Source: Labia minor
Lineage: Eukaryota; Arthropoda; Insecta; Dermaptera; Spongiphoridae
DNA: 64,000 nt
NCBI GenBank assembly: GCA_963082975.1
Contig: OY720350.1
Coordinates: 16,338,910 to 16,402,909, forward strand
Direction: 5' to 3'
Positions within the stretch are counted from its first letter, which is position 1, and each line of letters begins with the position of its first letter. The translations under genes were made by a program, and so were the position numbers. Under the pieces are notes generated by a model that saw only the letters and a list, made by a program, of their open reading frames with translations, ran no database searches and was not told where the DNA came from. Positions 1 to 61,875 of the stretch are shown piece by piece.

Positions 1-264
1 GCTTCATATTTTGAATATAGATTTAAAAAAATCAAAAAAATTGAGATACCAAATTTCATCATGATCTGACTACCGGAAGTGACATTTTACCTATACAAGT
101 AGCGTTAGGTGTAAATTATAAATATATATAATAGAGTGTTAAACCATTTTACTTTATAATTTAAATTAATTAGTTAATTTATTTTTATTGTATAAGAATA
201 CATAATAATAATAACCTAATTACCTATTTATATGCGGGAAAGTCTAGGGGAGGACACTCCCGAT
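1..264 (+). mobile_element. Helentron-like element, family B, 3' part (cut by window start)
   Basis: Bases 1-115 match, inverted, the stretch around 53430-53530 of the longer family B copy. The 3' end carries TATGCGGGAAAGT at 231-243 and then a hairpin GGGAG-GACA-CTCCC. The same GCGGGAAAGT occurs inverted at the 5' end of the other copy, which is the sub-terminal inverted repeat layout of Helentron-associated elements. No coding sequence. The 5' half lies outside the window. Confidence 0.65.
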
Positions 265-1138: not shown

Positions 1139-2957
1139 TTTATTAAAATATTAAAATAAGTATTATCAGAGTAGAGTGAAATGTTTATAATAAAATATAA
1201 AGTTTTCATTATTGATGCATATTAACAAAATTAAATCTATTATATATTTGACTTTAATTCTATATATACTATATTTTAGTATAGTTTATATTTAGTTTAA
1301 ATTCCAGGTGTATATATATTTCATAAATAAGCAATACACCTTTAACTGATTATAATTTTAATATTTTTTTTTTAATTCATTAGATATTTATTATAAAATC
1401 AAAATAATAGAAAATAATGTTTTTTTCATATTTATATATTATGTACCTACAAATATTTAATAAAGAATCAAAAAAAAAAAAAAGAAATGAATTTGAAGTG
1501 ACCCGTTCCATTTGTATTTTATAAACTAAATGAACAAGACTCCTTTTTCTCTTTTGTCTCGCTTTTAAATTCGACTATTTTGCCTTTTATATTTTCCCAA
1601 AAAACATTGAAAAGAGAATACATAATTCAATTTCATTTCTAAAACGAGAGCAAAATGCCTCCCAATTGATAATTATTTACGCTTTTCGCTGTTTATTCGA
1701 GAAGAAATTAAAATTCAATTGTTTTTGTTTTTGTTTTTTTTTTTTATTTAATATTTTATTCTCTATGGGGATTTATTTATTTCTTTTTTTTTTACTTTTT
1801 TTTATCCCTGTTAGGGGTATATCATTTATTTATTCTTATTTTTTTTTTTTTTTTTACTTTTAATTGGATGATTTTATTGAAGAGATAAATTATCTTAACA
1901 ATGAATTTAAAAAAGTAAAAAAAAAAAATACTTGAGAAGAAAATTATAAGTTTTTCCGTAATCAAATATAATAAATAAATTATTTGTTTAAATTGAAAAC
2001 ATAGTTATTATTTATTAACAAGTAATTAAATTAACGATAATTATAATATGTATTTTTATTATTTTTTGAAAAAAAAATATTTATTTATTTAAATATATGA
2101 AAAAATTAATTATCTATATATAATATATAAAAAGAAAAGATAATGAATATTTAAATATTATTCAAGTACAATACAAATTCTTTAAATTGAAGCAAAAAAG
2201 CAAATGCTGTTTTTTTGGCACAAAATTATTCATACTTAGCGAAAAAAAGTAATATTACTAACGAAATTGATAGCGATGTTGACTGTTCATTGATGACAGA
2301 CGTTGTACACATAAGAAAAAAAATATGGCGGGTCCATCTGATCTTCATACGCTCAATACCGCCATCTATGAGCGAACAGCGGATTTAAACTTGTTCACCT
2401 GGTATATATATACGTATTCATGTATTCAATAACAAAATCAAATTGTATAACATTTATTAAATAATTTTTTAAATTAATTTTTTTTTATAGACATTTATTT
2501 ATTTCCTGTTTGTGTTTTCATTTAAATTGTTTATTTTATTTTTTATTTTTTAAATGTCTGTGTGTGGCATAATAGGCTCAAATGTCACTCTGCCGGATAG
2601 ATTTATTTATTCGTGTCTAAAGAATGTCAATCAGCCAGATAGACATTCGGACAGCTACAAATTCGGCTCACCATTAAAATGAAAATCATTTAATTGTATT
2701 ATACTTTAAAATATTAATTTGATTGAGATCATATATATATATATGATATATACGTAGATATACATACATAGTAGATTTAAAATAAAAATTTAATCTTTTT
2801 AATAACCATTGATAATAATCGTATAATTAAAAATAAAAAAAATAATTTAAAATGTTTATTTTAAAATTTAGTTTAAACTGACATATAATGTTATAATCCT
2901 AATGTCTAATGATTACCAATTACAATCGATGTAATTGATAAACTAAATTTTAACTAA
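1139..2957. other. AT-rich DNA with long T and A runs, no gene seen
   Basis: Low-complexity, dominated by A/T runs (for example 1733-1745 and 1841-1855). Short open frames here are poly-T artefacts (Phe/Leu strings). A slightly less AT-rich patch at 2270-2400 and another at 2560-2670 contain no recognisable gene. Confidence 0.6.
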
Positions 2958-3579
2958 GCTGGAGTGTCTCCACTCGACTATCTCGCAATTTGAATTGGAT
3001 TAAATAACATAATAGTTTATATTTAAATTAAATTTAATTAATTATAAATTATAAATTAAAATTAATAAATAATATTTATTAAACCAGCGCATGTTTGGCT
3101 CTTTGTTGATGGCACCACGTCACATGTTGGTGCGTGAGATTTGCAGTGTTAAAAAATTAATTCTGGTACTTTCCGCAATCCAATCAAGCTGAAATTCTAT
3201 ATATAAAAGTTTTATACAATTTATAATCATGTGAAAAGAACTAACAAACATATACCTTTATTTTTAGGGTCACTTTAGAGGAAAAAAATCAAAACGTTGT
3301 TATTAATGACCCTCTTCCGGTTGAGCCACATTTCTTAAAAATAGATAACTAGAAAACTACGAATTTTGAATAATGCCCGTATACCAAATTTCATGATTCT
3401 AGCTCAAACCGTTTTTGCGTAATCTTGTCTACATACACACACACATACAAACATACACACACACACATTTTTCTCAACCTTAGTGAAAATGACTCAGTGA
3501 CATTCAAAACGTATAAAAACATCAAAATCTCAACATCGAAAATTTTCATGATCGTAATCCTATCTCTGGCGAGATATTA
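2958..3579 (-). mobile_element. Helentron-like element, family A, copy 1 (near full length)
   Basis: On the minus strand it starts with the decayed 5' end ATATCTCGCC and ends with GCGAGATAGTCGAGTGGAGACACTCCAGC (on the plus strand at 2958-2990, inverted). A (CA)n run lies at about 3428-3468. Internal landmarks are the block giving GGTTTGAGCTAG, the GCTATATATAG-like block and the AAGAGCCAAACATGCG block. Non-coding. Confidence 0.8.
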
Positions 3580-16971: not shown

Positions 16972-17433
16972 AGCTGGAGTGTCTCCACTCGGCTATCTCG
17001 CAATTTGAATTGGATAAAATAACATAATATATTATATTTAAATTAAATTTAATTAATTATAAATTATAAATTAAAATTAATAAATAATATTTATTAAACC
17101 AGCACATGTTTGGCTCTTTGTTGAAGGCACCACGTCACGTGTTGGCGCGTGAGATTTGTGCAGTGTTAAAAAATTAATTCCAGCGATTCAATCAAGCTGA
17201 AATTCTATATATAGCAGTTTTATACAATTTTTAATCATGTGAAAAAAATTATCAAACATATATCTTTATTTTTAGTCAGTTTAAAGGAAAAAAAAATGAA
17301 AACGTGGTAGGTAATGATCCTCTTTCGAATGAGCTACATTTCTCAAAAGTTGATAGAAAACTACGAATTTTGAAAAATGCCAGTTGACCAAATTTCATGA
17401 TTCTAGCTCAAACCATTTTTGCGTAATCTTGGT

Positions 17434-17472
<39 letters not shown>

Positions 17473-17584
17473 TTTTCTCAACCTTAGTTGAACATGACTC
17501 AGGAACCTTCAAAACATAAAAAAACATCAAAATCTCAACATCGACAATTTTTGGGATCGTAATACTATCTCTGGCGAGATAGTA
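16972..17584 (-). mobile_element. Helentron-like element, family A, copy 5 (full length)
   Basis: Both ends intact: the minus strand starts ACTATCTCGCCAGAGATAGT (17565-17584) and finishes with the GAGTGGAGACACTC hairpin and CCAGC. A (CA)n tract lies at about 17441-17470. The 63-codon frame across it encodes a Cys-Val repeat and is an artefact. Confidence 0.85.
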
Positions 17585-29669: not shown

Positions 29670-30300
29670 GTTGACCCGTGGCCAGGTCCGAACCGACCGA
29701 CGGTTTGAAGTAAATTAATTAGGGGCTTCAGAAACAATTTCAAATAATTTTAATATATCTATTAATGTAATAAAAAACAGATATGGATACATAAATAATA
29801 AATATAAACATTTTTAATTTTATTTTATTTATAATATATATGCAAGACCAGGCTGTGACGACATGAATGGCTGGATGACGTCAAATTTTAAATCAAGAAA
29901 AAACTAATAAATATGATTTTCCCGAGGATAAAACCAATACAAAGTGCATGATTCGTGGTGATATATAAAAAAATCTCCTCATGTGAAATTTGGTGTGAAA
30001 ATAACCCTTCCCTTATTATCGTCGATCGCTAATACTACCACTTCCGGTTTCCGGATTTGCACCAAAAGTTGATCAATTCATTCCACTGATGCATTAAGTA
30101 AATATACCAAATTTCATCAAAATCGGTTGGGCCGTTCAGGCTGTACACATCTATACGAACGGACGGACGGACGGACAGACATCATGCTAAAAATACTTTT
30201 TTCTGTTAAGAAAATGCATGATTCGTGGAGATATGTAAAAATCTCCACATGTGAAATTTGGTGTGAAAACAATACCTCCCTTACTATCGTCGGTCGGTAA
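29670..30300 (-). mobile_element. Helentron-like element, family C (complete ends)
   Basis: The minus strand starts TTACCGACCGACG (30288-30300) and near its end repeats it inverted as CGTCGGTCGGT (29693-29703). This is followed by a small hairpin GACC...GGTC and GTCAAC. A CGGA/GTCC tetranucleotide run lies at about 30161-30180, in the place of the (GT)n of family A. A segment of about 100 bases (30200-30296) is repeated at about 29930-30035. Non-coding. Confidence 0.65.
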
Positions 30301-33476: not shown

Positions 33477-34090
33477 ACTATCTCGCCAGAGATAGTATTG
33501 CGATCACGAAAATTTTCGATGTCGAGATTTTGATGTTTTTATACGTTTTGAAGGTTCCTGAATCATTTTCACTAAGGTTGAGATAAATGTCTCTGTGTGT
33601 GTGTGTGTGTATGTTTGTATGTATGTAGACAAGATTACGCAAAAACGGTTTGAGCTAGAATAATGAAATTTTGTATACGGTAATTATTCAAAATTCGTAG
33701 TTTTCTCTCAACTTTTGAGAAATGTAGCTCAACCAGAAGAGGGTCATTACCTACCACGTTTTGGTTTTTTTCCTTCTAAAGTGACCGTGAAAATAAAGAT
33801 ATATGTTTGATAATTTTTCACATGATTAAAAATTGTATAAAACTGCTATATATAGAATTTCAGCTTGATTGAATCTCTGAAAGTACCGGAATTAATTTTT
33901 TAAAACTGCATATCACGCGCCAACACTTGACGTGGTGTCACCAACAAAGAGCCAAATATGCGCTGGTATAATAAATATTATTTATTAATTTTAATTTATA
34001 ATTTATAATGAATTAAATTTAATTTAAATATAATATATGTTATTTAATCCAATTCAAATTGCGAGATAGTCGACTGGAGACACTCCAGCT
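33477..34090 (+). mobile_element. Helentron-like element, family A, copy 10 (full length)
   Basis: Perfect 5' hairpin ACTATCTC-GCCA-GAGATAGT, (GT)n with TGTA units at 33592-33629, all internal blocks, and GCGAGATAGTCGACTGGAGACACTCC at the end, where G to C weakens one base pair of the terminal hairpin. Confidence 0.85.
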
Positions 34091-51598: not shown

Positions 51599-52715
51599 AT
51601 TTTCTCAAGATACTTACCACTTTTTGTTTTAATAAAATTGAAAAGTAACGATAGAGAATAAAATCCAATGTTTTAAAGGATATATATTTTAGAAGAATTT
51701 ATTAGACAAAGAGAGATAAATATTCTTTTCTTTGAATGGGGATGCTGTGGTGTATTGTTATCAGGTGTCAGGCATCAGGGCTTGGGAGTCAAACCACGCC
51801 TGTGGCTCCCAGACAGCCTGAAGAATATCACTATCACCTGATCACTTTCGGGAACCCACCACCAACCAACCAACCAACACCGAGCCCTTATCAAATAAAT
51901 ACACAACCAAATTCTCTCCACTTAATTAAAAGAGTTTAAAAAGATTAACGACTATCCACGGTTGGAGCACTGACCCGGCCAGTTTGTATGGTCTTCTATT
52001 CCATGGTGTTAATATTCTCCCTCTTCGTAATTCTAGGGACATTTCCTTTGTAAATTAATGAGGTCACAAGTTCAAAATATATAATTCATCAATCAATCAA
52101 CTTATAAAATAAATAAATAAAAAATAATTAAGAAAATTAAAAATAAAAAAAAAAACAAAAACAAAAAATATTAATTCATTCATTCCTTCTCTCCAATCAA
52201 AATCATTTTAAATTCTTTTTATTATTATTAATTATTATTAGTTTGACTTGTTTAATTTAAAATATGTGTAACAAATAAAAGAATAATAATATTTTATTAA
52301 TAGATAAATTGAAACAATTATGATTGATACACCAGCTGGTTTTATGTAATCTAATAAAGTAAGTAATAGATTAGAACGGAGACATGATTGATAAAGAGGT
52401 GAGAGGGAGTGGTGAAGGTTGAAGATTGAAGGAGACCAGTAAACGAATTGGAGGGTTTCGATGGTATCATAGAACCCTTGTATCTCTTTTGTCAGTGTCA
52501 TTGACACTTGTGTCAGGATGATTTGGTCAGTGCATTGAATCCGCCCACCATTCAAACTTAATACTATACTAATATATAGTTTTTATAGTAAGTATTACTC
52601 ATAAAGATTAAACAGTAAATGAATGGAGTAGACAGATTTATGATAAATGGCAGATTTAATTAAGACTGTATTTCAATTTCTTTGAAAACAAAGTTAGATA
52701 ATTTATATAAAAATA
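51599..52715. other. Mixed unique DNA, possible SINE fragment at 51750-52080
   Basis: A less AT-rich stretch (CTTGGGAGTCAAACCACGCC ... ACCCGGCCAGTTTGTATGG) ends with GGTCACAAGTTCAAAAT, loosely B-box-like. No second copy in the window, so it stays unassigned. A 105-codon minus frame at 52238-52555 has no recognised domain. Confidence 0.35.
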
Positions 52716-52914
52716 AGCGGGAGTGTCCTCCCCTAGACTTTCCCGCATATAAATAGGTATAAAGAGTTGTGAATGAATATTTAGAATGTGTAAACTTGGT
52801 ATTGATAAAGAGCCAGTTCGGATTAGTTTATTGGTGTCAAATTTGATATTTGGTAACATTTATATATATATATATATATAGAATAAAGTGCTACTTCCGG
52901 TTAACTGATATTTT

Positions 52915-53422
52915 AAATGTATAAAAAACAGATATGGATATAATATAAATATTTTTAATTTTATTTTATTTATAATATATAAGAGCTGGCTGTGACGTCA
53001 TGAAGTGCTGGGTGACGTCATATAATTTTAAATTAAGAAAAAACTAATGAAGATGATTTTTCTCGAGGATAAAACCAATACAAAGTGCATAACACGTGGA
53101 GATATGTCCTCACGTGAAATTTGATATGAAAATAACCCTTCACTTCCTCTCTTCAATTGGCAATACTAGCACTTCCGTTCCAACGTTGATCAATTCATCC
53201 TACTGATGTATTAAGTAAATATACCAAATTTCATCAAAATCCGTTGAGCCGTTCAGGCTGTACACATCTATACGGACGGACGGACGGACGGACAGACATC
53301 ATGGTAAAAATACTTTTTTCTGTTAAGAAAATGCATGATTCGTGGAGATATGTACCTAAAAATATCCATAGGTGAAATTTGGTGTGAAAACAATACCTCC
53401 CTTACTATCGTCGGTCGGTAAA
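52915..53422 (-). mobile_element. Family C segment inside family B (3' end missing)
   Basis: The minus strand starts TTACCGACCGACG (53409-53421) and follows the complete family C copy at 29670-30300 through the GTCC run (about 53276-53297) to the ACAGATATGG block. The family C 3' sub-terminal repeat and hairpin are absent, and family B sequence follows. Confidence 0.65.
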
Positions 53423-53718
53423 AAAAAACGCTACTTGTATAGGTAAAATGTCACTTCCGGTAGTCAGTTCATGATGAAATTTGGTATCTCAATTTTTTTC
53501 AAATTTTTAAATCTATATACAAAATATGAAGCAAATATCTCGAAGCAAACTGGTACTTTACTTGAAAGGTAAACGCAACCAGTGTAGGTAAAGTACCACT
53601 TCCGGTTAACCGATTTTGACGAAATGTTGATAGAAATCTACAAACTGTGAATAATATCGGTGTACCAAATTTCGAAGTCCTAGCTTGATTAGTTTTTGAG
53701 TAAATTTGCTTACAGACA

Positions 53719-53719
<1 letters not shown>

Positions 53720-53749
<30 letters not shown>

Positions 53750-53770
53750 CATACATACATACACACACAC
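53720..53770. repeat. (ACAT)n then (AC)n microsatellite
   Basis: About eleven ACAT units followed by five AC units, in the position within family B that (GT)n occupies in family A. Confidence 0.92.
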
Positions 53771-53899
53771 AGACATAATTCGAAAAATGGTATTTTCCGA
53801 CTCAGGGAGGTCTAAAACGTCAAGATCTATCGAAATCTCGAAGTCGAAATTTTTGACGATTCCAATACTTCCCTTATACGAAGTATGCGGGAAAGTAAA

Positions 53900-54348
53900 A
53901 AACTGAAAATTTAAGAACTTAACTTAATGGTAAAATACTGATAACTTCTAAACAGTGACAACGATGGTTCAAATCTCATCATAAATTAAAAATTTATAAT
54001 ATTATTATATATTATATATATTATATTATATTATATTATATTATTGTAGAAGAATATCAAGAATATGTGGAAAATGGTTAAAATGGGCTTAGATTACGCA
54101 TATAGCACTTATCTAAAAATATTTTTTTTAAAATTTATGCAATCCCATTAAATACACTTATTTATTTATATTCCGATTTTAAAATAGAATATTATCTATA
54201 TATTCGTTTCAATAAAATAAACTATTTTGTTATGATCGTTTTTTCTACAATTGTATACGTATTATATATGTACTTTTAATCATTGTTTAAAATATTTTTT
54301 GAGATTTTTGTAATAAATATTAAATAAAGTTTTATAAATTATTTAGAT
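53900..54348. other. AT-rich DNA, no gene seen
   Basis: TATAT-type simple sequence at 54000-54045; nothing else recognised. Confidence 0.5.
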
Positions 54349-54806
54349 CAGAGGTTCGCAAACTGTGGTATTTTTATGGTGGTACCTTATAACTTGACGG
54401 TGGTATATACCAGGGGTTGGCAACCAGATGCCCGCGAAGCCACTTTCAAGTACCGCATTCGAATTACTAAGTATTAAATTATTACTAAAAAAGAAAAAAA
54501 TAAGATAAAATGTTTTTGCGATCAGGCTATAAAAAATTTTCGATTTTTTTTTTCAAATTTTTCAACAAAAATAGCTCTAAAAAAAGTAAAATGATTTTAC
54601 GATCAGGCTCTTAAACATTTTCGCTTTTTCAATATAGCTCTAAGTGCCCATTCCTATTATATTATTTCAGAAATGTGCCCGGCTATTGAAAAAGGTTGTC
54701 GGCCCCTAGTATATACAGTACAATTACTTTTAGTAATGAAATCAATAAAGTGTTTTTGTTGGATGTTTCTGTGTGGAACCAACTTCAAAAAGTTTAAGAA
54801 CCACTG
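54349..54806. mobile_element. hAT-like MITE (outer) with exact 8-bp target duplication
   Basis: Ends CAGAGGTTCGCAAACT and, inverted, CAGTGGTTCTTAAACTTTT. ATTTAGAT flanks both sides (54341-54348 and 54807-54814). Interrupted by the MITE 54411-54708. The end sequence resembles that of the intact hAT at 42583-45909 (GGTTCTTAAACT), so that enzyme may have moved it. Confidence 0.85.
54411..54708. mobile_element. hAT-like MITE (inner) with exact 8-bp target duplication
   Basis: Ends CAGGGGTTGGCAACC and, inverted, TAGGGGCCGACAACC. GTATATAC flanks both sides (54403-54410 and 54709-54716). The interior carries two GCGATCAGGCT-type blocks, the second followed by CTTAAACATTTTCG. Confidence 0.88.
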
Positions 54807-55759
54807 ATTTAGATGACTTGAAGTTCAAAAGCTAAATTAATTAAATTTATAATTTACAAAAATATATCCATTATTATATTTTTTATTTCAATTTTTGTAA
54901 CTTTTTATATAAAAGCATTTACATATTTATTTTTTTTATATTTATTTTTTTTTTTTGTAAAAAAAATTCATAATCAACTTATCACTATTTTATTTATTAT
55001 TTTATTTTTATTTTATTTTATTTATTTATTTTTTTTTTTTTTTTGAAATGAATAACTCTCTTCTCAATGAAATTATTCCTTCCTTTAGAATGTTGTCTGT
55101 TTTTGTTTTGGCTGTGTCTTTTTTGAAATTCTTAATTGGTATACTGAATAGTATCGTTCGGTCATTCTTCACCGCTTGATAGTCTACAAGTTGCCCAGGC
55201 CTCATTAATTTCCTCATCATTTCCTTAAATCTTTATTTATGCCTCTCTACTATCCCTATCGGACGTACAGTAAAACATGACTCTTCAAACAAAACAAAAA
55301 AAAAAAAAATTTAAATATATTATATATAAAAAAACTATTATCAAAATAAAAATAAAATAAACATAAATAGACATAACGTTTAAAGTATTTTCAATTACGA
55401 GATATATATATTTTTGTTATCTTGTACTTTATGTTTTAATTTATTTTCTATTTTGTTTGTCAAACTAAATTTAAAATCGAGCTGAGAGTAGCCTATATAT
55501 TTCGAATGATGGTACGAATAATTAATGGGATAGTTTAGTTCATTTAGTGCTGTGAAAGTTGTTGGCCACAATTCATTCAACCTGGCCCCAATGATCGTGC
55601 ATGTTTAGAATATTTTCGTTGCAACATATTTTTGTTTTTCAATAGCCAATATGTAATAATTAACTTGGAACTGTTTAAAATGAAATTCCAATTTTTGACA
55701 ATTTTAAAAGGGAATATATTTGTGACATTATATTTTATGATTTATAGTATCGTAGCATG
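54807..55759. other. AT-rich DNA; possible retroposed fragment at 55030-55280
   Basis: A run of T at 55030-55044 (a poly-A tail on the minus strand) follows a minus-strand frame of about 58 codons ending at the run (MMRKLMRPGQLVDYQAVKND...). No family was recognised. It may be the 3' end of a retroposed transcript. Confidence 0.35.
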
Positions 55760-56220
55760 CGAGGCTCATTCAACAAGTACTTAGCCTCACCGCCCGATGG
55801 CGCTGCTATCACAAAAGAGTTTTACCATCATGTAGTACATTCATTTACTAGCATACTGCCAAAGCTTCAGTCATGTTCCTTCACTAGTTTTGTTGTACAA
55901 AAATGGAAAAATAACAATATCGTTCGGTGATTAGATTCTTATTTTTGGAAGGGAAATCAAAGATCGCTTGGATGATGTGTACGGTGACTCTTCTCCTTCG
56001 ATGGCGAGCGTCAAAAATTGGTTCGATATTGTTCTTTTTCCATTTATTGTACAAGTGATCGACATGCTCGCTTCCAAATGCTGTCAAAACAAAACTAGTG
56101 AATGGAATTGACTGAAACTTTGACAGTAGGCTAATAAAATAATGTACTACATGATGGTAAATCTTTTGTAATAGCAGCGCCATCGGGCGGTGAGGCTAAG
56201 TGATTGTTGAATGACCCTCG
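55760..56220. mobile_element. Mariner deletion derivative with about 80-bp inverted ends
   Basis: The ends begin CGAGGSTCATTCAACAA and share CTTAGCCTCACCGCCCGATG and GCGCTGCTAT, inverted, over about 80 bases. TA follows the right end; TG stands at the left, probably a changed TA. The plus-strand interior at about 55955-56025 reads EIKDRLDDVYGDSSPSMASV plus KNWF, a mariner N-terminal DNA-binding helix region. The catalytic part is gone. Confidence 0.82.
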
Positions 56221-57175
56221 TAGAATGTGAGTGAGTGAACTCAATAATACTCTCCTATATGTGAGTAAGTATATTTCGTAAACCATATTTTATGATTTCA
56301 ACAATGTTTGTTGATGCATAGAAATCATGTGATTTCTTGTTATTCAATATCTACCTTCTGTGATATTTATCTTTAATTAATTTGATTTGATTTTTTTTCA
56401 AATAAATACACTTAAAAAGCAATTTCTCATTTTGATAGGGTGATTTTTCAGATTGGAATAATGCCTATAATATTTTATTCTATGTTCACTTAGAGAAAGA
56501 CATACGATATACCATATATACTTTCTAAGTAGGGTGGTATTTATTGGGATTTTAAGGGATAGTGAAGGAGGTCCGGGGGGAGGGTGGGAGGACAATCAAC
56601 CACCTCCAGGTTCTGTCACTAACGCCAATCAGTGTCGGTCTGGTTCAATCAGGACCATTCAATTCGTTGTCTCCAATTTACGAGCTAATCCTTCCAAATG
56701 TACAAGATCGAACAAACAAAAAAAAAACAAAAAAAACAAAGAAACAAAAAAAAAGTTATTTTAATTCTTTCGATTGTGCACTGTCGATTTATTTCTGTTG
56801 GTTTTAATTTACAGCATGGCAAGACGGATGCACGCAAAGGCTTGTTAACCCACGCGAAAACACACCCACTCGTAAGGTACTGGGGAATTTTTGAAAGCCG
56901 CCCCGTTGTTGAAAGGTGGACGTTTCCCTTGCTAATTAGGCATACAGTGAGTTGGTGCGTTCGTTCTTTAATCAAGCGACATTGCAACTACACCAAACAT
57001 TTATGTTTGTTCTTAGAGAATTTATTCCCAATCCATGTTCAATTAATAATAAGAAAAAAAAAATAATTATAGTAGGGAGTTTATCAAACAAAAAAAAAAA
57101 TTGTTTTATATTTGTACAAACAAATTAAATATTGTGAGTATTGAAATGTAATGTTAATTTTAGACCAGGGGTGTC
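56221..57175. other. Unique DNA with less AT-rich islands at 56560-56700 and 56800-57000
   Basis: A run of about 17 mixed A/C-rich repeats lies between the islands. The second island has an acceptor-like TTTAATTTACAG before 56815 and a donor-like GTAAGG after 56871, framing 19 codons; see the finding. No gene is called. Confidence 0.35.
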
Positions 57176-57516
57176 TAAAGTGCGGCCCCCGGGACACATG
57201 CGACCCAAAACCCTTCGAGATGCGGCCCAAACACAAATTATGAAAATTTTTTGTGACTCTTGACACGCGATCAGACTTTGACCCTATGTGCGGCCCAGCA
57301 AAAACCAAAACCCCATCAAGCTGCGGCCCAAACACAAATTATGAAAATTTCGCCTTTTTTTGAAAAATTTTCAATTTGTCCCTAAAAAAAAGGTTAGATA
57401 TTTTTAGCGATCAGACTTTCGACATTTTTTTGAAAAATTTATAGAGTTGGCAACCCTATGTGCGGTCCAGCATATTTTTTTTTTTTTGCAATGTGGTCAT
57501 AGTTTAGACTCCCCTG
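57176..57516. mobile_element. hAT-like MITE with internal duplication
   Basis: Ends CAGGGGTGTCTAAAGTGCGG and, inverted, CAGGGGAGTCTAAACTATG. The flanks TTTTAGAC and TTTTAAAC match at 7 of 8 bases. GCGGCCCAAACACAAATTAT occurs twice and GCGATCAGACTT three times with small changes, so part of the interior has been duplicated. Confidence 0.8.
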
Positions 57517-58132
57517 TTTTAAACAGTAAATATTTTCCATTTTTAAATCAAAAGATGTTGTTTCCAAATTTTTGTTATTATCCACTCTTTCAAATTATAT
57601 TTCAACTAGAAAATTAACATGATTATTCCTCTTTTAAATTTCTAGTTTAATTAATTTTATTATTGAATTATTATTAAAATGAAATGTGTAGGCGGCTGAG
57701 ATTAATTATTCGAAAACCAAGTCATAAGAACGAAGAAAATATAATAAGTTTTCTTAATAGAAAATATATTTACGTTGAAATAAACGTAAATAACAAATTA
57801 TTATGTCAATTATCAACAAAATATTTTACACAAATAACAATAACAAGTATAAAAATTTTAAAAATTGATCAAAAATATAAAAATTGAATATATTATATAC
57901 GCGAATTTAAGGAAACATTTTACTATTATTATTATTATTATTATTAGTTTTATCAAATTTTTTAAATATTTGACACCTTTTTTATTCAATTAGTTAAACA
58001 TATTTTTATATTAGTAATTATTTTAAAAATTATTGACTCTTGTTTGTCCAAATGAAACCATAAAAACTAAAAGGTAAGTTTATTAATATGTAGATTAATA
58101 ATATATGTAATTGTTTTCCTTGCTAATCATAT
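57517..58132. other. AT-rich DNA, no gene seen
   Basis: (ATT)n run near 57925-57945. No recognised content. Confidence 0.5.
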
Positions 58133-58680
58133 ACGAGGTTTATTCAAAAGAAAAGGTGAATTTTGAATTATTTCGAAAAGTATTTATTTATTCATCACAA
58201 TATCTATTTTGTTCCCTTCAAAGTAATTCCCTTCAGATATAATGTACTTATACCAGCGCTTCTTCCAATCGTCGAAGCACTGATGAATTGCGCTTTTCGG
58301 TATGGCCATCTGCTCGTTCTTTGATTCCGACTTTATCTCATCAATTGTGGCAAAACGCTTTCCTTTCATTGGTCTCTTCAGTTTTGGGAATAGGAAAAAG
58401 GCATAAGGAGCCAAATCTGGTGAATACGTTGGTTGAGGTATGATTCCGGTATTTTTTTGGCCAAAAAATCACGAACTAGCAATGATATGTGAGCTGGTGC
58501 ATTATTATGATGCAGAATCATGCATGATTTGTTTTTCCACAATTCCGTTCGTTTGAGCCGTATTGCTTCACGCAAACGTTGTATGAATTCCTTGTAGTAT
58601 TTCATATTAACAGTACGATCTGTTGGCAAGAACTCATGATACACCACGCCATTCTTTAAAAAATTGAAGAACACACAAGA
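58133..58680 (-). pseudogene. Mariner transposase C-terminal half, catalytic residues lost
   Basis: Two overlapping minus-strand frames read NGVVYHEFLPTDRTVNMKYY ... LHHNNAPAHISLLVRDFLA and then YAFFLFPKLKRPMKGKRF ... DDWKKRWYKYIISEGNYFEG. The second catalytic Asp is Asn in HHNNAPAH. The third is lost where the usual APCDFF-type sequence reads APYAFF. A frameshift lies between the pieces. An end sequence CGAGGTTTATTCAAAAG at 58134-58150 looks like the 3' inverted end with TA beside it. The 5' half is absent. Confidence 0.87.
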
Positions 58681-59950
58681 AATCAGGTTTCGAAAACAAA
58701 CTACTAATCCAAAATGGCTGATAATGTTAACATGTAATATAATAAATAATTGAGCCGGAATGAGATTTTATATCCAATTGAAAAAACAATAAAGTTAGAT
58801 TTAAAAAAAATTGTTTTTTCTTTGATTGAGAAAAAAAATCTTAAAAATACGAAAAATATATCGTTATTTTATTCAATATTTAATAATAAATCTAGATAGA
58901 AATATTTTAAATTGAATTCTAGTTTTTCTTGTATTGTTCTTTCACCAAGGGGTCTATAAATTTCGCAACGATTTGAATTATAATCTTCTCTCATTTATAA
59001 TCAAATGAATTGGTCAAAAAAAGCTTGAAATTGTAAAAAAAAAGACTTTAAATTAATAATGTAATAAAAAAATAGGAAATTTTAATTAAATACGATAAAA
59101 AATATCAAGATATATTTATTTGAATGGATATTTTTTAACTTGGATGGATGGATATCCGTGAAGAATTTATAAATTGTCTATTATCATAAAAAGATAAATG
59201 AAGAATTTAAGCAAAATAAGGGAGTTGAACTGTCCTTTCGATAGACTGAAAAGTCGTCATTAAAATTAGAGTTTTTTTTTTTCTTACTGGAATGAATTCC
59301 ATTTTTTTAACCTTAACTCGAAGGAAAACTTGATTGATATTCTTTTGAATAGGCTAAAAATACTGAATTATATCGCAATAACGTCAATAGGATAAAGAAT
59401 TGGTCCTCTCATATAAATTAATTAGTATTGAGAAAAAAAAAATAATGTATTTTTTGGACATTTATATTACAAATTTATATTTAAATGAGGCTTTGTATTA
59501 ATTAATACTGAAAGGATGATAAACCGATCATTAAAACTCAAGTTTTTTTTTGTCCATTATCATGATAATAATTTTTTTTTTGGACCATTTTAAGTATTGA
59601 AAATCATCATTATCGTCATCATCATCATCATTTATATTAATATAAAATTATAATCTTTTTTTTTCTTTGTTTTTGAATAAATATTTTATTTAAATTAATT
59701 TCATCGATAATTCCGTATTTATATAAGTTTAATATATAAATAAATAATTATATCATAAATCAAATAAAATATTTAATAATAATTTTTTAATATTTTAATT
59801 AATTTTTGTTCTCTAAACAAAAATTTATAAAACAAATTAAACAATCAATCAATGAGAGATTTAAGAAGTAGGTCATTTAGTAATTTTCATAATAACTAAT
59901 AAAAATTTATATTTTATTATGTTAGTAGAAATTGGAATAAGTCTTGTTGA
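58681..59950. other. AT-rich DNA, no gene seen
   Basis: A/T rich with a (CAT)n run at 59613-59632. No coding sequence recognised. Confidence 0.5.
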
Positions 59951-60209
59951 AATGTGTGTAGTCAAGATTACGCAAAAACGGTTTGAGCTAGAATCATGAA
60001 ATTGGTATACGGGCATTATTCGAAATTCATAGTTTTCTATCAACTTTTAATGTAGCTCAACCGGAAGAGGGTCATTATCTACAACGTTTTGATTTTTTAC
60101 TATCTCGCCAGAGATAGTATTGCGATCACGAAAATTTTCGATGTTGAGATTTTGATGTTTTTATACGTTTTGAAGGTTCCTGAATCATTTTCACCAAGGT
60201 TGAGAAAAA

Positions 60210-60246
<37 letters not shown>

Positions 60247-61015
60247 AGGCAAGATTACGCAAAAACGGTTTGAGCTAGAATGATGAAATTTGGTACATGA
60301 GCATTATTCAAAATTCATAGTTTTCTATCAACTTTTGAGAAATGTAGCTCAACCGGAAGAGGGTCATTACCTACAACGTTTTGATTTTTTTTCCTCTAAA
60401 GTGACCGTAAAAATAAAGATATATGTTTGATAATTTTTCACATGATTAATAATTGTATAAAACTGCTATATATAGAATTTCAGCTTGATTGAATCGCTGA
60501 AAGTACCAGAATTAATTTTTTAACTCTGCAAATCTCACGCGCCAACACGTGCCATGGTGCCATCAATAAAAAGCTAAACATGCGCTGGTTTAATATTTAT
60601 TATTTATAATTTATAATTAATTAAATTTAATTTAAATATAATATATTATGTTATTTAATCCAATTCAAATTGCGAGATAGTCGTGTGGAGACACTCCAGC
60701 TAATTTTTCTCTAAAGTGACCCTAAAAATAAAGATATATGTTTGATAATTTTAAAGATTGTATAAAACTGCTATATATAGAATTTCAGCTTGATTGAATC
60801 GCTGAAAGTACCGGAATTAAGTTTTTAACACTGCAAATCACGCGCCAGCACGTAACGTGGTGCCATCAACAAAGAGCCAAACATGCGTTAGTTTAATAAA
60901 TATTATTTATTAATTTTAATAAATAATTTATAATTAATTAAATTTAATTTAAATATAATATATGTTATTTAATCCAATTCAAATTTGCGAGATAGTCGAA
61001 TGGAGACACTTCAGC
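59951..61015 (+). mobile_element. Helentron-like element, family A, copy 13 (truncated, interrupted by copy 14)
   Basis: 59951-60098 starts in the residual GT tract and runs to ACGTTTTGATTTTTT. After the insertion, 60704-61015 resumes at TTTCTCTAAAGTGACCC and ends with CGAATGGAGACACTTCAGC. It belongs to the same subfamily as copy 11. Confidence 0.88.
60099..60701 (+). mobile_element. Helentron-like element, family A, copy 14 (full length, nested in copy 13)
   Basis: Perfect 5' hairpin, (GT)n at 60214-60242, all blocks, 3' GCGAGATAGTCGTGTGGAGACACTCCAGC with one mismatch in the hairpin. It sits in the T run of copy 13, which fixes its borders to within a few bases and shows preference for T-rich targets. 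Confidence 0.9.
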
Positions 61016-61875
61016 TTATTTAAAATTTTTTTAAATGCTTAAAATGTTAACTACAAAATTAAAGAAATCCATGTTTTTTAAATTACATTATAAAAATCAA
61101 AAATAATTTACATATATTCAATATTGAATTATCATAAGCTGATTGAAATAGAAAAATAAATAAATAAATAAATATTTAAAGAAATAAAAAAAGTAATAAT
61201 AGACAGTATAAAAAAATACATTTGTTTTACTTTTATCAACATTATCATCAGTTTGGCTGTTACTTTATTCATATACAAAGGATAGATGCATCAGGTTGAC
61301 AGTAAAACTCGCGTGATAGAATAAAATTTAACCAAATGGCTACGTTGTAATTTATTATTAATATTTTATTTTCTGATTAGATTATATAAATCCTGGCGGC
61401 TCGCTAATAATTTAAAAAAGTAATTTACTAATGAGTCGTATATCTAGAACCTCCATTAATAATAATATGGCTTCCAATATTTTAAAAAGGGAGAATCTCT
61501 CGCATTTTTAATATTATTATTAAATAATTACTTTTCGTGGTCAACGCTAAAATAATAATATAAAAAAAAAATGTGTAATAGGATATTATAATTAATTTAT
61601 TATATATCTCGTATATGTCTAATTAATTTATTTCTTTAACAATAATTTAATTCACCTATAATTTTCATTTCAATGAAATATGATCAATTCAATATGAATA
61701 TGTTTTATTTTTAAATTAGATTCCCCTATTTATTTTATTTTTTGATTGAAATTTAGGCATATGGCCCTTGCCTTATTATTATATAAGTTATTATTTCGCC
61801 CATTTTTAGAAATTATTAAATATGGTTCTGATAAATTTAAAGTTATTTTAATTTTTTTGTATTCAATATCTATAC
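61016..61875. other. AT-rich DNA, no gene seen
   Basis: No recognised repeats or frames. The 121-codon frame starting at 61746 runs into the following MITE and is not a gene. Confidence 0.5.

Follow-up and report, generated by a model that had tools for sequence, protein, structure and literature searches.

Families A, B and C in the window

The window analysed here is a stretch of 64,000 nucleotides from Labia minor (Dermaptera; assembly GCA_963082975.1, contig OY720350.1, positions 16,338,910 to 16,402,909 of the forward strand), in which three families of short repeated elements, here called A, B and C, account for 9,185 bases. We estimate a probability of roughly 0.95, judging from sequence, that all three are non-autonomous Helentron derivatives (HINEs), a class that includes DINE-1 of Drosophila. 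The first-pass annotation of positions 52716-60701 had already noted that the layout fits Helentron-associated elements such as DINE-1, and this view is supported by the long A and B copies, the RGSPHEH signature and the T-rich insertion sites reported below.

The same annotation described each family as having paired ends, a short 3′ hairpin and a simple repeat in the middle, and for A and B this was accurate (Table 1). In A, the subterminal inverted repeat (subTIR) ACTATCTCGC at 60099-60108 has its reverse complement at 60672-60681, directly ahead of the inverted repeat TGGAG-ACA-CTCCA, and the 10-mer was found 13 times in the window against 0.01 times expected from shuffles. The B subTIRs are 13 bp long (53884-53896 and 52737-52749; three window matches, 0.00 expected) and B copies also have (GTAT)n and (GTCC)n arrays. 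For C a matched pair does exist, but not where it had been placed. The range 52716-60701 holds a single ACCGACCGACG (53409-53419, minus strand), which starts a C-like segment within B and has no 3′ partner there, whereas the complete element with an 11-bp pair (29692-29702 and 30288-30298) lies outside that range. The window comparison also displayed a (GTCC)n microsatellite inside C.

An inverted repeat near the 3′ end is visible in all three families. In folds, a 6-bp 3′ hairpin forms in the C variant of loci L005, L025 and L026 (L numbers are our locus labels) and A forms an overlapping, shifted hairpin; the B subTIR pairs with the element end instead, and the C variant of the window also pairs otherwise.

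All three families are numerous in the 604 Mb genome. The A 5′ 20-mer occurs without mismatch 4,772 times on one strand and 4,828 times on the other (9,600), the C 3′ 24-mer 6,941 and 6,936 times (13,877), and the reversed control pattern of either has no copy genome-wide. A first look yielded 2,264 candidates for B and 2,725 for C, of which 40 each were scored; leaving out the window copy itself and short fragments, the scored matches were 89-97 % (B) and 95-98 % (C) identical to the window copy. Within the window, A matches longer than 300 bp show 74-91 % identity to A at 60099, and because these values are lower, A looks older than B and C. The A element at 60099-60705 sits within a still older A copy (59953-60098 and 60706-61016), which the annotation did not mention.

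Table 1. Coordinates of family A, B and C features in the window
Feature	Position	Strand	Evidence
Family A non-autonomous element (HINE-like), terminal TAATT counted in	60099..60705	+	window comparison, joined-site reading
A 5′ end: subTIR ACTATCTCGC, hairpin of 8-bp stem with GAGATAGT	60099..60118	+	motif search, fold, 9,600 exact genome copies
A 3′ subTIR GCGAGATAGT	60672..60681	+	motif search
A 3′ inverted repeat TGGAG-ACA-CTCCA	60686..60698	+	by eye; an overlapping hairpin in the fold of the more frequent A end
A (GT)n microsatellite	60210..60246	+	repeat scan
Older A copy, left part, T-run at right edge	59953..60098	+	window comparison, restored site
Older A copy, right part, own A 3′ end at 60978-61015	60706..61016	+	window comparison, restored site
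Further complete A copy	33477..34090	+	window comparison
Further complete A copy	16972..17583	-	window comparison
Further complete A copy	2957..3578	-	window comparison
Family B non-autonomous element (HINE-like), terminal TTATT counted in	52712..53896	-	motif search, fold/flank reading
B 5′ end: 13-bp subTIR and imperfect inverted repeat	53862..53896	-	motif search
B 3′ subTIR TATGCGGGAAAGT	52737..52749	-	motif search
B 3′ inverted repeat GGGAG...CTCCC	52717..52733	-	by eye; fold pairs these bases otherwise
B (ACAT)n tetranucleotide array	53711..53777	-	repeat scan
C-type 5′ segment within B (C 1-536, 84 %), C 5′ subTIR at 53409-53419, (GTCC)n, no C 3′ end	52916..53420	-	
End of B-type element without C segment: B 366-471 at 1-106, other DNA, B 3′ end at 221-263	1..263	+	
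Complete family C element: 5′ end at 30298, 3′ subTIR at 29692-29702, hairpin, ends GGTCAAC before T-run	29670..30298	-	

Insertion sites

Insertion sites were read in 27 complete B copies of 1,156-1,221 bp, namely the window copy and one copy each from 26 of the loci L002-L028. We left out L001, which is the window copy, L010, which is cut by its stretch, and the incomplete copies in L012, L021 and L025. TTTTT stands directly ahead of the B 5′ end (ACTTTCC) in 23 of the 27 copies, with T at position -6 in only 12, and TTATT directly follows CCCGC in 25. No target duplication was found in this sample, flank k-mer matches lying at most 1.4 copies above shuffled pairing.

Two nested insertions restore an uninterrupted site without duplication, when TTATT (B) or TAATT (A) is counted as the element's own end. 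At L018, where B lies within an A copy, the joined flanks are equal in length to four of six readable A copies (of the other two, one is longer and one shorter), with two substitutions in 18 bases relative to the nearest copy. For A within A in the window, the length agrees with three of five readable copies, the other two being one base shorter in the T-run. L027 agreed only partially as an extra restored site and was not counted. The six A copies vary at the L018 site (TTTTT in three, TTATT in two, one shorter), so the division of T's between element and target is not settled. It is likewise unsettled in the published cases covered by the available part of PMC4067079.

The T-rich sites anticipated for these families were thus recovered without target duplication. 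The outcomes that the annotation had named as contrary to a Helentron origin, a different transposase in the long copies or consistent duplications, did not appear in the DNA read. The sites also bear on a reading of the elements as miniature inverted-repeat transposable elements (MITEs) of a cut-and-paste DNA transposon with subterminal inverted repeats. Such an origin would suit short, high-copy elements with inverted matches near both ends, but no target duplication was seen in the 27 B copies or at the two restored sites, and the inverted repeat is located outside the 3′ subTIR. Moreover, the long partner of A encodes Rep and PIF1, and for A and B the long copies largely refute a MITE origin, which we consider very improbable.

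Long elements with A, B and C ends

For each family, larger copies sharing its termini and carrying a Rep/helicase gene had been predicted, and for A and B they were found. The long A-type element (C1:47874777-47862612, minus strand) is 12.2 kb long (12,166 bp if measured up to the last base of the 3′ inverted repeat), has both A ends and contains a single open frame of 2181 codons (Rep locus C1:47868109). Its A 5′ end lies 4.3 kb upstream of the frame, and A 1-520 is present there at 92-94 %, partly duplicated and without an A 3′ end. On the 3′ side the last 39 bp of A (565-603) are found at 97 %, and the rest of A is absent save for AT-rich low-complexity similarity. The short A element is made up of about 520 bp of the parent's 5′ DNA and the parent's last 39 bp or so. 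The unique 3′ DNA of the long element recurs at C1:44693910-44694107 with 99 % identity over 249 bp, through the A 3′ end, and the flanks differ beyond. This recurrence belongs to a second long A copy, 98.6 % alike over 6.4 kb. Between gene and 3′ end the first copy contains a GC-richer insert (about 200-920 in the reverse complement of L055), which is probably a retroelement and is missing from the second copy.

The long B-type element starts with B 1-471 at 91 % from C1:44706631, continues with a decayed Rep/helicase gene and reaches the B 3′ end at C1:44692857. The second long A copy sits inside it; past this insertion the element resumes with B 996-1040, about 0.8 kb of other DNA and B 1021-1180 with the B 3′ end. 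The encoded protein is 55-58 % identical to the long A Rep/helicase and 34-36 % in the further C-terminal part. In short B elements, positions 1-471 of the B parent are followed by C 1-536 (84 %) and finally by 3′ DNA of the B parent. By sequence comparison, A and B are internal-deletion derivatives of long Helentrons.

Short elements might also have landed by accident on either side of unrelated Helentron genes, given the high density of A ends (chance would place 0.035 exact A 5′ ends on the same strand in 4.4 kb) and the eleven Helentron loci examined. However, the flanks of the long copies complement one another as parts of the short elements, with A 1-520 upstream and A 565-603 downstream in one case and B 1-471 upstream and B 996-1040 with 1021-1180 downstream in the other. 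The second A copy, too, shares the unique DNA up to and including the A 3′ end, and immediately past it the sequence diverges. Chance flanking therefore seems hardly credible.

For C only the 5′ half of the prediction was recovered. At C1:55785334 the C 5′ end and C 1-528 at 93 % are joined to a Helentron gene with a 790-codon frame carrying DUF6570, followed by the Rep motif, farther on by a helicase part and then by an OTU domain (E 2.4e-9). We infer that the Rep, helicase and OTU pieces belong to one interrupted gene. The DNA downstream contains two direct repeats of 582 bp, 99.5 % identical (L069-L075, C1:55803741-55809773), which are probably the long terminal repeats (LTRs) of a young LTR element.

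In the long A protein Helitron_like_N, DUF6570 and PIF1 all scored above the Pfam cut-offs (the PIF1 scan covered the A type only). The Helentron Rep signature RGSPHEH was read in the A-, B- and C-type genes. The C-terminal end of the A-type protein, searched as a piece alone, gave a C48 (Ulp1-like) match of 20.4 bits against a cut-off of 20.7, and its best PDB match was SENP8 (E 0.0034); this domain is likely an Ulp1/SENP8-like peptidase. We recognised no report of an Ulp1/C48 peptidase in a Helentron among the 10-20 best-ranked open-access PMC papers per search, which is not proof of absence.

Several observations weigh against the assignment to Helentrons or against the links between short and long elements. 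Only one two-ended long A copy was read: in the second the 5′ end is missing and the reading frame is broken in places, and a third occurrence of the unique 3′ DNA, at C1:7258225, aligns no farther than query position 154, the point at which the A 3′ end starts. The AP-endonuclease match PF14529 stands at the place expected for this domain in Helentrons, C-terminal to the helicase of the A-type protein, but reaches, as a piece alone, only 22.9 bits (E 8.4e-5) against a cut-off of 27.4, and the piece had no PDB match. An RPA gene was not identified in long A: the 16.6 kb read contains no large second frame, and five frames of 120-167 codons were left unscanned. The long B element is decayed, with seven stops in the matched stretch 1-974, the nested A element and the 0.8 kb interruption, and an intact copy was not found. 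In the C-type locus the Rep and helicase parts are more than 5 kb apart (the gap was unread), the helicase part has two stops, and the C 3′ end was not found in 18.5 kb downstream of the gene (C1:55798400-55816900). HINE subTIRs measure about 11-15 bp, and the A subTIR, exact over 10 bp, is 1 short of the 11 bp given as criterion in the available part of PMC4067079. Among the 27 B copies, four (L005, L007, L009 and L019) lack the preceding TTTTT and one has an 8-base flank match. Transposition itself was not observed.

Other Rep loci in the genome

A genome profile search with PF14214 gave 104 matches from 126 candidates scored. GLPH, the canonical Helitron motif, was read at each of the 20 best loci, several of them with frames near 1,650 codons; at six loci with weaker scores the motif was always GSPH, as in Helentrons. 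Canonical Helitrons start with 5′-TC, end with CTRR-3′ and insert at A^T. Their abundance here could favour the view that A, B and C derive from them and not from Helentrons. Yet within the match and 1.5 kb on each side (3.5 kb fetched) none of the 20 GLPH loci contains an exact copy of an end motif of A, B or C, GSPH is the motif in the genes tied to these ends, and the ends start with AC, mostly after T-runs. A canonical origin is accordingly most unlikely. Eight of the canonical loci (L035-L041 and L043) have near-equal Rep scores, 195.7 bits in seven and 195.2 in one, and frames of 1,537-1,655 codons, which suggests that this Helitron was recently active.

Four of the eleven Helentron-type loci examined have A, B or C ends: the A parent, its second copy, the B-type and the C-type locus. 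In the DNA read, the ends were not seen at the other seven (L049/L058, L050/L056, L051/L057, L053, L054/L059, L070/L071 and the contig-end L061). Such ends may yet be present at L050, L051, L053 and L061, where the upstream stretch covered was short (about 1.4-1.7 kb at L050, L051 and L053), since in the A parent the A 5′ end is 4.3 kb ahead of the frame. Another Helentron family is represented by L049 and L054. Its 5′ end, which adjoins a T-run, is a different one, and counted from it the two copies are 99.8 % identical over 2.98 kb. The DNA to the left of the L049 copy resembles the C-type 5′ region. A VTD tegument-like peptidase was suspected by eye in L049, but a PDB search gave no support.

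Mosaic structure and proposed mechanism

Read from the alignments, the families are mosaic, because both B and the A parent also carry C-type 5′ ends. In long A a C 5′ end is found together with C 1-528 (89 %), and the C-type 5′ region there amounts to about 2.1 kb in total, 90-97 % identical where directly compared. The C 5′ end is present in other fetched B copies as well, mismatched in some. The B-type piece at the beginning of the window has 114 other bases between B 471 and the B 3′ end and no C segment, so that this segment appears to be filler DNA of a single B lineage.

Related Helentrons within one genome might exchange parts, with 5′ ends captured whole and the C-terminal ubiquitin-type peptidase swapped (OTU in the C type, Ulp1/SENP8-like in the A type) while the family end pairs are kept. 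This is a tentative proposal that we think is more probably wrong than right. If it is true, the captured C start in B could let the enzyme of C copy from there to the B 3′ end, giving new end combinations.

As for the mechanism, each short family has retained the terminal parts of a long Helentron while losing its gene (seen at both termini for A and B, at the 5′ end only for C), and the long element would supply Rep, helicase and endonuclease in trans. The Rep protein would recognise the subTIR and 3′ hairpin of its own family. One strand may then be copied by rolling circle, and the copy would insert beside a T-run without leaving a target duplication. With three abundant families tied to divergent Rep genes of their own, through both ends in A and B and through one in C, the specificity between end and enzyme becomes testable within a single genome. 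The captured 5′ ends of this mosaic also show concretely how new families could originate.

Other features of the window

A mariner-like transposase remnant was noticed by eye at 58135-58660 on the minus strand, with a broken frame (seven stops in one frame of 58150-58660) and an HNNAPAH-like motif, which we take to be a mariner-like mark. The region 55755-56225 contains about 450 bp with long inverted ends (CGAGGCTCATTCAACAAGTACTTAGCC...) and, again by eye, looks like a MITE. Stretches reading TGCGGCCC and GTTGGCAACC at 54410-54710 and 57165-57510 are by eye likely another dispersed repeat.

Comparison with known systems

Lepidopteran MITEs with (GTCY)n microsatellites were reportedly described by Coates in 2011. 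C itself, and B within its C-derived segment, carry a (GTCC)n array of similar description.

The closest resemblance in layout is to DINE-1/HINE elements and Helentrons as presented by Thomas, Vadnagara and Pritham (2014) in the available part of PMC4067079, by structure, as the end sequences were not compared letter by letter. Shared features are the subTIRs, an inverted repeat at the 5′ end that lies within the subTIR there (A and B), the 3′ inverted repeat, the microsatellite, T-rich insertion without target modification, the GSPH signature, and short elements that are deletion derivatives of Rep/helicase/endonuclease elements. In contrast to that account, the A subTIR has 10 bp, a foreign C-type 5′ end occurs in B and long A, an RPA gene was not identified and long A ends in an Ulp1-like match instead of OTU.

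The Cg_HINE elements of the Pacific oyster, in the portion of PMC7492417 at hand, likewise comprise many families per genome, with oligo-T sites, no target duplication and a modular make-up. They differ in having satellite-like arrays and in that their authors were unable to link them to any autonomous Helentron, whereas two families are here tied by both ends. Ubiquitin-type peptidases (OTU, VTD) have been found in Helentrons according to the sections of PMC9741609 available, and the C-type gene here has OTU, unlike the A type with its weak C48/SENP8-like C-terminal match. HINEs with identified parents are otherwise of a known type, and the less ordinary part of the present system is the mosaic ends together with the differing peptidases.

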